Assembly: GCA_019638795.1 (NCBI GenBank)
Contig: JAHBTB010000004.1
Coordinates: 62,001-126,000 of the forward strand
Source of the DNA: Fimbriimonadaceae bacterium
GTDB taxonomy: Bacteria > Armatimonadota > Fimbriimonadia > Fimbriimonadales > Fimbriimonadaceae
Direction: 5' to 3'
DNA length: 64,000 bases
The notes below the pieces were generated by a model. It searched no databases. It was given only the letters and a program-made list of their open reading frames with translations, and had not been told where the DNA came from. Below are positions 35,701-39,499 of this stretch, piece after piece; position 1 is the first letter of the stretch, and every line of letters starts with the position of its first letter. A program made the position numbers and the translations under genes.

Positions 35701-36564
35701 TCACGGACGGCCCGCGTCGTCCCTCTTGGGCGGGGTCAGGTCGATGACCTTGCCCGTCATCGCCTTCCATTTCGTCTTCTGGCTGTCCGTCAAGACGTCG
35801 AGAGCCCGCTTGACCAACTCGGCCCGCTTGGTCGGGTCGACCATCATCGGGGGGCCGCCCGGTCGCCGTTGTCGGCCAGGGCCGCCAAACCCACCCTCAG
35901 GCGGTGGGCCTCCCGGGCCACCCTGCCCGCCGCCAAACCCGCCCGGTTGACGCGGCTTCGGCATGCCGTCCCGGACGATCTCGTCCAGCTTGGTCCTTTG
36001 GTCGTCGCTGAGGCCGAGCTTCTCGGCGACTTCGGGGCGCAACATCGACATGGGGGCTGTGGCCTGCAACTGGATCTCCTTGTACCGGGCCAGTTGCTTG
36101 CTCGTCAGGATCTCCGCGATCTTCTTTTCCATGTCTTGGCGCGGCATCGGTCCACGTCCGCCGTCCTGCGGGGGCGGTCCACCTTGGCCACCGCCAAATC
36201 CGCCCTGAGGCGGCGGTCCGCCAGGGCCGCCGTCGAAGCCTCCCTGCGGTGGGGGGCCGCCAGGGCCGCCGTCAAAGCCACCCTGAGGAGGAGGACCGCC
36301 AAATCCACCCCGCGGTCCCCGCGGCACTAGCTCGTCGATCTGCTTCTTCTGCTCATCAGTCAGGGCCAGTTCCTTCTGCACGTTCGGGTGCTTCAGGAGC
36401 ATCGGGCCGTTGAGCCCCATGCCCATCATCGGTCGGCGCGGGCCGCCAGGTCCGAATTGGCCCGGTTGGCCAGGCCCGCCAGGCCCGGCCGCTTGGGCGC
36501 AAACGGTGCCAGACACTGCCAGCATGGCCAAAGCCGCGACCGAAACGATCAGTGTGTGTTTCAT
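35701..36564 (-). CDS. Periplasmic Spy/CpxP-like LTxxQ protein with Gly/Pro-rich repeats
   Basis: GGAGG seven bases before ATG 36564 sets the start (287 residues). A signal peptide ends near VCAQ. Two LTxxQ-type motifs occur, LTDEQKKQIDELV and LSDDQRTKLDEIV, plus LTSKQLARYKEI and LTDSQKTKWKAM, as in Spy, CpxP and related metal- or stress-responsive periplasmic proteins. Between them lie Gly/Pro-rich stretches with three tandem GGPGGPPPQGGFD-like units and a second GGPGG-rich region. It lies just downstream of a response regulator and kinase on the same strand, the arrangement expected for an envelope-stress regulon. Confidence 0.8.
   Translation of the reverse strand: MKHTLIVSVAALAMLAVSGTVCAQAAGPGGPGQPGQFGPGGPRRPMMGMGLNGPMLLKHPNVQKELALTDEQKKQIDELVPRGPRGGFGGPPPQGGFDGGPGGPPPQGGFDGGPGGPPPQGGFGGGQGGPPPQDGGRGPMPRQDMEKKIAEILTSKQLARYKEIQLQATAPMSMLRPEVAEKLGLSDDQRTKLDEIVRDGMPKPRQPGGFGGGQGGPGGPPPEGGFGGPGRQRRPGGPPMMVDPTKRAELVKRALDVLTDSQKTKWKAMTGKVIDLTPPKRDDAGRP
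36166..36310 (-). repeat. 39-bp tandem repeats coding Gly/Pro-rich units
   Basis: About three copies of a 39-bp unit encode GGPGGPPPQGGFD, with substitutions mostly at third positions. Flanking partial units extend the region on both sides. Such repeats tend to vary in copy number between strains. Confidence 0.65.
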
Positions 36565-36621
36565 TTCATGTCCTCCAGAAACGCGGCCCACACCAACGGG
36601 GCCCGCTTCCTTGTTATCACT

Positions 36622-38142
36622 TTACGAGGCTCCTATGAGGGATTTATGAGGGTCGGACACCAGGGGCAAAAGGACCCGGACCACTGTCCCCTGGCCCTCT
36701 TGACTGGCGATGTCGACGCGTCCCTTGTGAGCCTCGACAAGGCCCTTGGTGATCGCCAGACCGAGCCCGGTACCCCCGTCTCGCCTTGACCTCGCCTCAC
36801 CAGCCCGATAGAAGCGGTCAAAGACGTGGGGAATGTCTTCTTCCGGGATGCCGTCGCCCGTGTCTTGCACCGTGACCCTCGCCCAGCCTCCTTCGGAGTC
36901 GACCGTGACATGCACCGTCCCGTCTTGCGGCGTATGCCGACGGGCGTTACCGACAAGGTTGACGACCACCCGACTGAGGAGCGCCTCGTCCCCTTGCACA
37001 GGGACCGGTTCGTCGGGGAAGCAGGCAGTGGGGACGGGGCCCGGTCCGGCCACGGCCTCGATCCCTTCGGAAACGGGCACGCGGAGGTCGACCGTGCGGG
37101 CGTCGATCGTCAGGACACCGGCGTCCGTGCGGGCCAGCGTCAGCAGGTCTTCGACCAACCGGGCCATTTCTGCGGCGGTCGCGTCGGCCCGTTCTGCCGC
37201 TCTCTGGAGTTCACTGAGGTTGCCGGGGGCGTTCAGGGCGTTACCCAGGGTCAGCCTGATGCGGGTCAACGGAGTCCGGAGCTCATGGCTGGCGTCGGCG
37301 GTAAAGCGTTGCTGGGCGTCGTATGCCTCCTGTAGCCGGGAATACGCCGACTTTTCCTCCGCAAACGCGGTGTCGAGCCGCCCGAGGAGGTCGTTGAATG
37401 TCCCGGCTATGCGAGCCAGTTCATCGTCACCAGTGACAGGAAGCCGTTGGGAGAGGTCTTCGGCGCTAATCGCCGCGGCGGCCCGCGTCAAGCGGTCGAC
37501 AGGCCGGAGCGCCCGGTCGATCAAGACCCTGGCCCCGAGGACGACAAACACCAGGGCGACCGGCAGGAGGACGGCGAACGTCGCCGTCTGGGCCTGGCTC
37601 AGGGAGAGCAAGAGGTCGGTTTCCTGGGCGACCTGGACAGTGCCAATCTGGACGCCGTTCCGAAACGCGGGCATGGAGAGGACCCGCAACCGGCCTAGAT
37701 CGGTGAACGTGGGGGCCGTCACGAGGGCCGTCGCGCCCTCGAAGCTCTTGTCTGACCATGCCGGGTCCGAACCGGAGCCGGCCGCCACGAACCGAGGCCG
37801 GCGGATGTCGGCCAGGCGCGAAGCGTCTTGGTAGACCTGGGGTATCGGCCCCAGCCCGGGTGTCCGGGGGCGGGGGCGTTGCCCCGGCGGTGGGCCGGGT
37901 GCTCCGGGCTCAGGGCCCGGCCCTGGCACACCGCCGTCGAGACGGAACATCCGCTGTTGCTCCGGCGGAGGGGGGCCAAGCTGGACCGCCTCGTCGCCTC
38001 GGTGGCGCAGGTCGCGGTCGATCATAGAGGTCAGCCGGGCACGGGTGACCCCGGTCATTGCTGCGGCGAAGCCGACGAGAAGGAGCACGATGACCGCGGT
38101 GTTCCACAGGAGGAGGCGGGTGCGCAGAGAATGGGCGACCAA
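36622..38142 (-). CDS. Envelope sensor histidine kinase (CpxA/EnvZ-like)
   Basis: The 506-residue kinase starts at TTG, three bases after the response-regulator stop. It has a first membrane helix (about 9-28), a periplasmic sensor domain (about 30-190) with a striking Pro/Gly-rich stretch (GPPPPEQQR, GPGPEPGAPGPPPGQ), a second membrane helix (about 190-212), HAMP, a dimerisation domain with H286 in DASHELRTPL, and an HATPase with NLVGNARRH, VQDTGDGIP and GTGLGLAI. With the regulator upstream and the LTxxQ protein downstream it forms a Cpx-like module. Confidence 0.92.
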   Translation of the reverse strand: MVAHSLRTRLLLWNTAVIVLLLVGFAAAMTGVTRARLTSMIDRDLRHRGDEAVQLGPPPPEQQRMFRLDGGVPGPGPEPGAPGPPPGQRPRPRTPGLGPIPQVYQDASRLADIRRPRFVAAGSGSDPAWSDKSFEGATALVTAPTFTDLGRLRVLSMPAFRNGVQIGTVQVAQETDLLLSLSQAQTATFAVLLPVALVFVVLGARVLIDRALRPVDRLTRAAAAISAEDLSQRLPVTGDDELARIAGTFNDLLGRLDTAFAEEKSAYSRLQEAYDAQQRFTADASHELRTPLTRIRLTLGNALNAPGNLSELQRAAERADATAAEMARLVEDLLTLARTDAGVLTIDARTVDLRVPVSEGIEAVAGPGPVPTACFPDEPVPVQGDEALLSRVVVNLVGNARRHTPQDGTVHVTVDSEGGWARVTVQDTGDGIPEEDIPHVFDRFYRAGEARSRRDGGTGLGLAITKGLVEAHKGRVDIASQEGQGTVVRVLLPLVSDPHKSLIGAS

Positions 38143-38145
38143 GGT

Positions 38146-38817
38146 TCAGTCCTCCGCCCGGAGCGTGTAGCCAAAGCCGTGCACCGTGTGGATCAGCTTC
38201 ACCGGATGCCAACTGTCCACCTTCCGCCGGAGCGACGTCACGTGGAAATTGACCGCGTTCTCCGTGTTTTCGTCGGCACCCCATACGTTGTTGAGGATGA
38301 CTTCGCGTGTCAGCGTCCGACCCCGGTTGCGGACGAGTGCCTCCAAGAGTTCGAATTCCCGGGGTGTCAGGTTGATCTCCCTGCCGGCACGCACGACCCG
38401 TTTCGTCTGAGAGTCCAGCTCGAGGTCGGCAAATTGGACGACCCCGGACTTGACGGCCTTGTCGCGCCGCACCAGGGCCCGCACACGGGCGGTGAGTTCC
38501 CGGACGTCGAAGGGTTTGACCAAGTAGTCGTCTGCCCCAGCTTCAAGCCCTTCGACCCGGTCAGAGACTTGGTCCCGTGCGGTCAACATGAGCACAGGCA
38601 CCGACACTTGGGCACGTCGGGCGGCCTGGCACACGGCGAGGCCGTCCATCCCCGGCAGCATCCAATCCAAGACGACCACCGCGTAAGGGTTGATGAGGAT
38701 GGAGTCTAGGCCGGCGGGGCCGTCATGGACGACATCGACCGCCAAGCCTTCGCGCCGAAGCGCAAGGGCCACTTCGTCGGCGATGGCGACGTCGTCCTCA
38801 ACGACCAAGATCCTCAT
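38146..38817 (-). CDS. OmpR-family response regulator
   Basis: The 223-residue protein has a receiver domain with acidic pocket E7-D8-D9, phospho-acceptor D51 in VVLDWMLPG, T/S in LMLTARD and K in LVKPFDV, then a winged-helix domain (about 125-220) with LTPREFELLEAL, NVWGADENTENAVNFHVTSLR (split at the recognition helix) and the IHTVHGFGYTL wing. It is the first gene of the kinase/LTxxQ module and should regulate that module by analogy with CpxR. Confidence 0.94.
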   Translation of the reverse strand: MRILVVEDDVAIADEVALALRREGLAVDVVHDGPAGLDSILINPYAVVVLDWMLPGMDGLAVCQAARRAQVSVPVLMLTARDQVSDRVEGLEAGADDYLVKPFDVRELTARVRALVRRDKAVKSGVVQFADLELDSQTKRVVRAGREINLTPREFELLEALVRNRGRTLTREVILNNVWGADENTENAVNFHVTSLRRKVDSWHPVKLIHTVHGFGYTLRAED

Positions 38818-38859
38818 ACCCGTCTTACGTACCCAGAGAGTATGAGGAATCCGTGAGGG

Positions 38860-39414
38860 TCAGAGGCCAATCAAGACCGCGATGATCGCTTTACTGTCCA
38901 TTCGGTCGAAGCTCTTCAAGCCACCAGGCTTGACGCTGCCGTCGCAGAAAACCTGGATGCTGGAACCGATCGGGCCGCGCGAGACTCCGTCACCGTCCAC
39001 GCCCTCGACGAACACAAAGTTGAGTTGGCCCGACTGGGGTGCGCGTCCCTTGTAGATCGGGTTCCTCACGCCCCGTTCATAGATGCGGAGCTCCATGCCT
39101 GAGTTGACCCGGACCAGTCCGGCCCGGAAGTAGTGCGGAGACGGCTTGACGCTTCCGTCTCCCATGGCTACCGTCCGGGCGACGAGCACCGAACCGTCTC
39201 CGTCCATGACGATGAGCTTGGCTTCGGTCCGCACCTTTTGGACGGCAGGCAAGAGCAAGCCGATCAGGACAGAGTCGGTGCCTCCGTCTATGGCGATCGG
39301 GCCCGAGGAATGGCCGACCGGCCCCGGGTTGTCTTGAGCCCGAGCGGTGGTCGGAGCTACTAAGCCAAGGGCCAATGTTGACGATACGGCTAGATTAACG
39401 AGCAATCTGTTCAT
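38860..39414 (-). CDS. Exported protein of unknown function
   Basis: The ATG at 39414 gives 184 residues with a signal peptide (MNRLLVNLAVSSTLALGL, cut near ARA-Q, residue about 27). An upstream ATG at 39447 would add 11 residues before the signal and is less likely; CAGGGGA lies before 39414. The mature part is predicted all-strand and repeats the tetrapeptide DGSV three times (GDGSVLVAR, GDGSVKPSP, CDGSVKPGG). No family was recognised. It lies upstream of, and on the same strand as, the response regulator, with a 42-nt gap, so it may belong to that transcript. Confidence 0.65.
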   Translation of the reverse strand: MNRLLVNLAVSSTLALGLVAPTTARAQDNPGPVGHSSGPIAIDGGTDSVLIGLLLPAVQKVRTEAKLIVMDGDGSVLVARTVAMGDGSVKPSPHYFRAGLVRVNSGMELRIYERGVRNPIYKGRAPQSGQLNFVFVEGVDGDGVSRGPIGSSIQVFCDGSVKPGGLKSFDRMDSKAIIAVLIGL

Positions 39415-39499
39415 AACTGTCCCCTGCCCGCAAAGTTCCGGGCACACCTCATTCTATATCTCTTGATCTCGGCGCAGGCATCAAGACTCGCTGCTTCGG

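Follow-up and report, generated by a model that had tools for sequence, protein, structure and literature searches.

A two-component system and an LTXXQ protein sharing a predicted operator and co-varying Pro/Gly-rich segments in a Fimbriimonadaceae bacterium and its relatives

The 64,000-nucleotide stretch of a Fimbriimonadaceae bacterium analysed here (contig JAHBTB010000004.1, positions 62,001 to 126,000; hereafter the window) carries, consecutively on its minus strand, the genes of a response regulator (RR, 38146–38817), of a sensor histidine kinase (HK, 36622–38142) and of a secreted protein of the LTXXQ (Spy/CpxP) type (35701–36564). Computation establishes the order of these genes, a direct-repeat box upstream of both the RR and the LTXXQ gene together with its conservation in relatives, and the co-variation of Pro/Gly-rich segments present in the HK and in the LTXXQ protein. 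The best overall explanation, to which we give somewhat better than even credence, is an autoregulated Spy/CpxP-type envelope-sensing circuit whose Pro/Gly segments co-evolve.

In such a circuit, the HK would sense a periplasmic signal and phosphorylate the RR, which would bind a direct repeat of 11-bp period overlapping the −35 region of two promoters and would activate its own RR-HK genes as well as the LTXXQ gene, the latter from a separate promoter in the 3' end of the HK gene. The exported LTXXQ protein, a putative chaperone-like helical protein with disordered Pro/Gly loops, would feed back on the kinase, and the HK linker and the LTXXQ loops may form, or set the reach of, the contact between the two proteins.

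The module and its shared direct repeat

38146–38817, minus strand: OmpR/PhoB-type RR, 223 amino acids (aa), from Pfam and NCBIfam matches
36622–38142, minus strand: sensor HK, 506 aa, TTG start, from domain matches
37804–37977, minus strand: Pro/Gly-rich linker of the HK, residues about 56–113, periplasmic, between the helix after the first transmembrane helix (TM1) and an RRPR/beta part
35701–36564, minus strand: LTXXQ (Spy/CpxP-type) secreted protein, 287 aa from ATG, four LTxxQ-type motifs in two modules
36160–36301, minus strand: 39-bp tandem repeat encoding 13-aa Pro/Gly units, between LTxxQ motifs 1 and 2
35836–35964, minus strand: second Pro/Gly segment of the LTXXQ protein, residues about 201–243, between LTxxQ motifs 3 and 4
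38842–38857, minus strand: direct repeat CTCACGGATTCCTCAT, box at which the RR is predicted to bind before the RR-HK genes (shared repeat)
38826–38831, minus strand: −10-like TACGTA of the putative RR-HK promoter, a weak match at conserved spacing
36635–36650, minus strand: direct repeat CTCATAAATCCCTCAT, box at which the RR is predicted to bind before the LTXXQ gene, within the 3' end of the HK gene
36619–36624, minus strand: −10-like TAAAGT of the putative LTXXQ promoter, spaced as conserved in relatives
36571–36576, minus strand: Shine-Dalgarno-like GGAGGA before the LTXXQ start, read by eye

The RR combines the Pfam domains Response_reg and Trans_reg_C and is thus of the OmpR/PhoB type. 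The HK displays HAMP, HisKA and HATPase_c domains (Pfam), two predicted transmembrane helices and a small periplasmic part of about 160 residues, in which the Pro/Gly linker (about 58 residues) separates a helix continuing TM1 from a short beta part located before the second transmembrane helix. Each module of the LTXXQ protein is interrupted by a Pro/Gly segment, and 3.6 copies of the 39-bp repeat encode the first of these; an alternative GTG start, 27 bases further out than the ATG, is also open. An earlier note on this DNA had placed the regulator, the kinase and the LTxxQ gene in a row on one strand and had located Pro/Gly stretches in the periplasmic domain of the kinase and in the LTxxQ protein, and both descriptions agree with the coordinates given above. 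The "gene fusion" of regulator and target that it also invoked is an error, as the genes are separate.

Both the RR gene and the LTXXQ gene are preceded by a direct repeat with an 11-bp period (CTCACGGATTCCTCAT and CTCATAAATCCCTCAT, respectively). In relatives, its half-sites are CTCAY or CAAAY, and its conserved form is CTCAY-N6-CTCAY (or CAAAY). The strict pattern CTCAYNNNNYCCTCAY has two matches in the 2.70-Mb genome to which the window belongs (the own genome), both of them at the RR and LTXXQ genes, and the reversed-pattern control has 0.

A match to the HK was found at E 1e-40 in 29 genomes, the own one among them, of the 61 that make up the relatives set, and at E 1e-55 in 52 of the 85 genomes of the family; among named bacterial genomes, the kinases matched were distant, with at most 36% identity. 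The RR gene lies just upstream of the HK gene in all 29 genomes, a few of which share one genus and so are not fully independent. An LTXXQ gene lies within 4 kb of the HK gene in 23 of them: on the same strand and downstream in 19 (inferred for G036, where the locus spans a contig break), upstream of the RR in G016 and G040, divergent in G002, and both divergent and convergent in G007, whose convergent gene was used. None was found within this distance in G018, G027, G015, G010, G023 and G051. The locus of G023 (L083) has an RR box and a short kinase linker, yet no LTXXQ match at E 1e-5. A single gene was likewise used where G027 has two boxed LTXXQ genes and where G063 has two nearby HKs.

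Boxes were scored with a leave-one-genome-out matrix in this first set; the threshold of 12, like the Pro plus Gly (P+G) threshold of 0.40 used below, was chosen after the first set had been seen. A box of at least 12 precedes the RR gene in 19 of the 29 genomes and the LTXXQ gene in 18 of the 22 that could be scanned, and in 35 of 37 boxed cases nothing else in the locus scores as high; G008 and G036 provide further examples of LTXXQ boxes lying at the HK 3' end. The matrix was then frozen and applied to 42 further loci from 32 genomes, which took no part in matrix building although some share a genus with the first set: of 15 LTXXQ genes adjacent on the same strand, 14 carry the box, as do 21 of 40 RR genes, while six divergent LTXXQ genes of this second set are devoid of it (best score 5.8).

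The box also accompanies LTXXQ genes that have been relocated. LTXXQ genes away from the HK, yet boxed and Pro/Gly-rich, occur in G027 (two genes, 18.9 and 19.5) and in G015 (17.5); a distant Pro/Gly-rich gene of G018 has a weak box (10.4) with the same CTCAG half-site as the RR box of that genome, and G022 has a boxed LTXXQ gene (19.0) although no kinase passed the search threshold. Altogether, 6 of 55 non-adjacent LTXXQ genes carry a box of at least 12 (57 loci were fetched, two of which lack an LTXXQ open reading frame, ORF). A second LTXXQ gene of G019 (L145) combines a strong box (20.3) with a low Pro/Gly content (0.20) and is an exception to the rule.

In both the RR and the LTXXQ promoter sets (20 sites each), a −10-like element (TAnnnT) lies 10 bp downstream of the box. 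The box would therefore overlap the −35 position, which is a usual place for an OmpR-type activator. A sigma-70 scan found no standard promoter, as expected if the RR replaces the −35 element. Of the 19 RR genes with a box, 15 have it 38–43 bases from the start codon, so that the RR transcript would be almost leaderless; this leaderless-like start (window 38818–38857) contrasts with the Shine-Dalgarno-like sequence of the LTXXQ gene.

Autoregulation of the RR and direct control of the LTXXQ gene are thus predicted, and we consider them very probable. Autoregulation had been proposed earlier, and the conserved repeat shared by the two upstream regions argues for it. The idea of one operon fares less well: the genes do form a same-strand row, but a promoter-like site within the HK 3' end serves the LTXXQ gene separately, so that this gene need not be merely the third one of a single operon.

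Single pattern matches are a poor guide to additional targets. Across the 61 genomes, the strict CTCAY pattern was matched 100 times and its reversed control 67 times. A lone match outside the module is therefore mostly of little meaning, and targets were judged by matrix score and position; the CAAAY pattern also exceeds its control in many genomes, among the matches listed. With two mismatches allowed, the own genome has 4 extra sites (reversed control, 1), none of which is convincing as a further target. Three of the four overlap ORFs of at least 150 aa. One of the looser sites lies 48 bases before a CTP-synthase-like ORF, and one of the ORF-overlapping sites lies also 228 bases before a secreted-protein ORF (both ORFs assigned by eye).

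Co-variation of the Pro/Gly-rich segments

Segments of this kind are rare in the window and in its genome. Among 48 window ORFs (a greedy set), only the HK and the LTXXQ protein reach 60% P+G over 30 residues (0.80 and 0.70), the next value being 0.47. The same genome has five further HisKA loci; an HK could be read in four of them, with a maximum of 0.33, and the fifth gave none. Among relatives, the HK segment (P+G of at least 0.40 over 30 residues) is present in 44 of 44 kinases with an adjacent LTXXQ gene vs 18 of 27 without one (Fisher p 6e-5, or 1.7e-4 when the truncated HK of G102 is left out), and all 44 adjacent partners keep a 30-residue run of at least 0.43. The loss of one segment with the gene pairing retained, which the earlier note had named as the observation that would speak against its proposal, was therefore seen at 0 of 44 loci. 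This count follows a length and P+G filter that excluded four LTXXQ calls (two transporter-like ORFs, judged by eye, and two of 107 and 132 aa) and that could hide a Pro/Gly-poor partner. LTXXQ proteins adjacent to the two-component system (TCS) have a median P+G of 0.34 (n=23) vs 0.19 for the fetched non-adjacent ones (n=55), and in each of the 16 genomes compared the adjacent protein exceeds all of the paralogues fetched.

The amounts of Pro and Gly in linker and partner vary together. The rank correlation of P+G counts is 0.50 in the 23 adjacent pairs of the first set, 0.53 (p 0.006) when three relocated partners are added (26 pairs), and 0.71 (p 0.005) in 14 new pairs, which were restricted to those with a box of at least 12, the first set having kept all adjacent pairs. 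For these 40 pairs together, rho is 0.61, contrasts on a kinase-core tree give r 0.44, and 29 of 39 contrasts have the same sign. When seven unboxed adjacent pairs (six divergent ones and G077a) are included, the 47 pairs still give rho 0.49 (p 0.0005), with contrasts r 0.36 and 34 of 46 of the same sign (sign-flip p 0.001). The proportion Gly/(Gly+Pro) is matched more clearly, with rho 0.68 in the 40 pairs and, in the 47, rho 0.66 and contrasts r 0.57. Furthermore, in the 40 pairs, linkers share 4-mers with their own partner at the 64th percentile relative to partners from other genera (p 0.002) and 5-mers at the 61st (p 0.01). Such co-evolution in amount, and more clearly in Pro:Gly proportion, would be explained most simply if both proteins act together in the periplasm, and a functional coupling of the HK and LTXXQ segments appears rather probable on these grounds.

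Several observations weigh against the overall explanation. The HK segment is not strictly tied to adjacency, because 18 of 27 unpaired HKs keep it. G051 has an HK linker, yet its LTXXQ gene is Pro/Gly-poor and unboxed; conversely, G010 has a Pro/Gly-rich LTXXQ gene, also unboxed, and no HK linker. Ten of the 29 genomes have no RR box at the threshold of 12; two of them, G016 and G040, are those in which the LTXXQ gene comes first, with boxes of 18.6 and 11.9. When the seven unboxed pairs are counted with the second set (21 pairs), the content correlation falls to 0.32 (p 0.16), as the kinases of these pairs have long linkers (29–55 Pro/Gly) and partners that are not equally rich. Sharing of 3-mers with the own partner is not significant (p 0.15, 40 pairs), the Gly proportion of non-boxed LTXXQ paralogues shows a weak positive trend with that of the linker (rho 0.36, p 0.11, n=21), and G007 is an outlier (linker with 35 Pro/Gly, single-module partner with 40). 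Finally, the structure models of the HK and the LTXXQ protein are of low confidence (predicted local distance difference test, pLDDT, 58), and a Foldseek search with the LTXXQ model gave no matches. The co-variation in presence and length that the earlier note had proposed as a check is consequently found overall, most clearly in boxed pairs and in proportion, but is not significant in the 21-pair second set; it is the box-linked system, not the related kinases without a box, that shows a clear link in content.

These related kinases deserve a separate mention. L296 (G073), L300 (G076), L304 (G070), L302 (G078), L279 (G075) and L294 (G094) have a divergent Pro/Gly-rich LTXXQ gene, and the linker and partner contents of this set are off the trend. 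Several of its members show TTCAY-N6-TTCAY-like repeats, not CTCAY, and the set is perhaps a paralogous system with a shifted specificity. Two other related kinases, L280 (G075) and L301 (G078), lack the Pro/Gly linker and are followed by a long ORF resembling RND-type efflux proteins (by eye), which hints at a metal-efflux paralogue.

The main alternative to functional coupling holds that the segments are flexible spacers or exposed loops that do not touch, and that both scale with a shared periplasmic property such as distance, crowding or a common third ligand (for example peptidoglycan or a misfolded client), any feedback passing through the helical LTXXQ modules as in CpxP. This is a real possibility, although it falls short of being probable. 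In the low-confidence models, the HK sensor consists of a helix, disorder, three strands and a helix, and the Pro/Gly parts of both proteins (the HK linker largely so) are unstructured, in keeping with this alternative. In passages of PMC4160245, the contact of E. coli CpxP is reported to depend on positively charged residues of the CpxP cavity, and both the linkers kept by unpaired kinases and the non-significant content co-variation of the second set with unboxed neighbours point in the same direction. A spacer would, on the other hand, have no need to match its partner in Pro:Gly proportion as well as in amount, nor to share 4-mers with its own partner above those of other genera.

Low-complexity drift, in which slippage in G+C-rich genomes would lengthen Pro/Gly repeats wherever secreted proteins tolerate them, the correlation being a lineage effect, appears unlikely. 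The 39-bp tandem repeat of the LTXXQ gene is of a slippage-prone kind, and the weak trend of paralogues in Gly proportion speaks for drift as well. However, Pro/Gly runs occur in just 2 of 48 window ORFs and in none of the four other HKs that could be read, the content of LTXXQ paralogues without a box does not follow that of the linker (rho −0.03, n=23), local G+C does not account for the content correlation (partial correlation 0.62, 40 pairs), and the tree contrasts persist.

Two further alternatives concern DNA and translation. Gene conversion, i.e. copying of DNA between neighbouring repeats, could have made the segments alike since the genes adjoin and are both repeat-rich; it is scarcely credible, as the longest DNA word shared by linker and LTXXQ gene is at most 17 nt in 40 of 40 pairs and is not significantly longer than with other genera (mean percentile 0.58, p 0.06). 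A coupling of translation to elongation factor P through polyproline stalling is hardly more plausible. The window HK does contain PPPP and PPP, and its LTXXQ protein five PPP, but PPP is found in just 11 of 29 linkers and 16 of 26 partners while the Pro/Gly segment is general, and stalling in EnvZ had little effect on protein level (passages of PMC6023141).

If the segments are functionally coupled, as we favour, the coupling may take several forms. A direct contact between the HK linker and the LTXXQ Pro/Gly loops is quite possible, though short of an even chance. The more specific proposal that disordered segments, co-tuned in length and Pro:Gly proportion, recognise each other as a species-specific docking code between a kinase and its feedback protein is more doubtful still. 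If the segments did form the contact, signalling specificity in these bacteria would be set by co-evolving low-complexity sequences. Even for Cpx, there is only a partial understanding of how a periplasmic LTXXQ protein is read by its kinase, and more than 40 natural sensor–partner pairs together with a short predicted operator make this question testable by linker swaps.

Boxed genes elsewhere in relatives

Several high-scoring boxes located elsewhere in relatives precede genes of secreted proteins that belong to a few families. Some of the regions were picked by eye from genome match lists, and these are examples, not a survey:

L182 (G008), L200 (G011), L183 (G023), L193 (G026), L238 (G019) and L265 (G015): boxed secreted di-haem peroxidase/oxidoreductase genes
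L244/L233 (G031), L246 (G035), L245 (G013), L247 (G019), L251 (G026) and L243 (G017): boxed YHYH (PF14240) genes

Within the first group, L182 and L200 are CCP_MauG di-haem peroxidase genes, and DHOR genes with a box were assigned by Pfam in G023 and by family search in G019 and G026; L193 carries three overlapping boxes. In the second, the assignment comes from Pfam in G031 and G019 and from the family search in G026. A metallophosphatase gene of G019 is also boxed. At least eight other boxes scoring 16 or more precede none of these families (L177, L181, L184, L227, L235, with 25.2, L236, L237 and L241).

In the reverse test, which started from the families and, like the 42-locus set, lay outside matrix building although some of its genomes share a genus with the first set, a box of at least 12 was found at 6 of 13 YHYH matches in the 61 genomes (one locus ends at a contig end), and at 3 of the 10 that had not been found via the box: G035 (23.3), G013 (17.0) and G017 (12.0, just at the threshold), with G007 at 11.7. 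For DHOR, the box was found at 5 of 11 loci scanned and at 2 of the 8 not found via the box, one of these two (G048) being a weak family match for which a long stretch was scanned. Searches of the own genome for either family, YHYH or DHOR, gave no match, in keeping with a regulon of two sites there. These data suggest a redox or metal theme for the putative regulon in relatives and, through the predicted operator, a link to the YHYH family, on whose function phrase searches of the open-licence PubMed Central literature returned no title.

Two other loci may be mentioned. In G019, a YHYH protein (L240) ends in a long Pro/Gly tail with an LTxxQ-like motif behind it, so that features of two families of the putative regulon are naturally combined in one protein. 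In G031, a third box (L199) precedes the gene of a 135-aa secreted repeat protein beside the LTXXQ gene, with no Pfam match.

Around the module in the window, the three immediate neighbours scanned with Pfam are trpA, a 195-aa ORF and an alpha-rhamnosidase gene. The 195-aa ORF (38860–39447) lies upstream of the RR on the same strand and has a sub-threshold H-X9-DG match (16.3, cut-off 19).

Family assignment and comparison with known systems

The LTXXQ protein scores 26.8 bits against PF07813 (Pfam gathering cut-off 24.3), as a sum in which no single stretch passes alone, and this assignment is marginal because a search of the own genome with the same family gave no match. PF07813 matches 11 of 21 partner proteins at E 0.1. 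A profile built from 21 LTXXQ partners matches Spy (3o39, 2.3e-5) and CpxP (3itf, 0.06), the Spy match covering profile positions 181–250, i.e. the second module. By sequence profile, the protein thus has a Spy-like module; it belongs with Spy and CpxP by profile and marginally by Pfam.

The HK scores 133.5 bits against the NCBIfam CpxA model, far below the cut-off of 486, and is not assigned to CpxA; no CpxR model is among the best 25 of 97 families listed for the RR. The best match of the RR among those listed is TIGR01387 (221 bits, cut-off 279) and the second best of the HK, after MtrB, is TIGR01386 (205 bits, cut-off 293), so that neither is assigned to CusRS/CzcRS. The circuit is thus predicted to work like Cpx-type feedback without being filed as Cpx, its HK and RR being nearer to CusS/CusR-type models. 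The label "Cpx-like" used in the earlier note suits the combination of a TCS with a Spy/CpxP-type partner but does not extend to the kinase. Among the matches listed in the open-licence PubMed Central literature, no title deals with such an RR-HK-LTXXQ module.

Like CpxR-CpxA-CpxP, the module associates a TCS with an LTXXQ periplasmic protein, here a predicted target and feedback partner. Unlike CpxP, this protein is double-module, and its gene follows the kinase gene on the same strand, whereas cpxP is divergent in E. coli. The sensor also appears to differ: its short domain contains a Pro/Gly linker and found no match in a sequence search of the PDB, while that of CpxA is described as a PAS-domain dimer (passages of PMC11078701). 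Interaction of CpxA with CpxP and shut-off by CpxP are reported for E. coli in PMC4160245, and passages of PMC11078701 describe CpxP as dampening the response, not as its entire off-switch.

The resemblance to Spy lies in the second module, to which the Spy structures match in the partner profile. The LTXXQ protein differs from Spy by its two modules, each interrupted by Pro/Gly loops, and by its score against the NCBIfam Spy model (24 bits, cut-off 174). With CusRS/CzcRS, the module shares the best listed match of its RR and the second best of its HK, but both scores are under the cut-offs, and none of the three adjoining genes that were scanned encodes an efflux protein.

The closest parallel for the segments themselves comes from EnvZ-MzrA: passages of PMC6023141 report that a polyproline motif in the periplasmic part of EnvZ is needed to bind the modulator MzrA and co-evolves with it. 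The EnvZ motif is a short VVPPA and the modulator is a different one, whereas the module described here has long Pro/Gly segments on both sides, in the sensor kinase as well as in its predicted partner.

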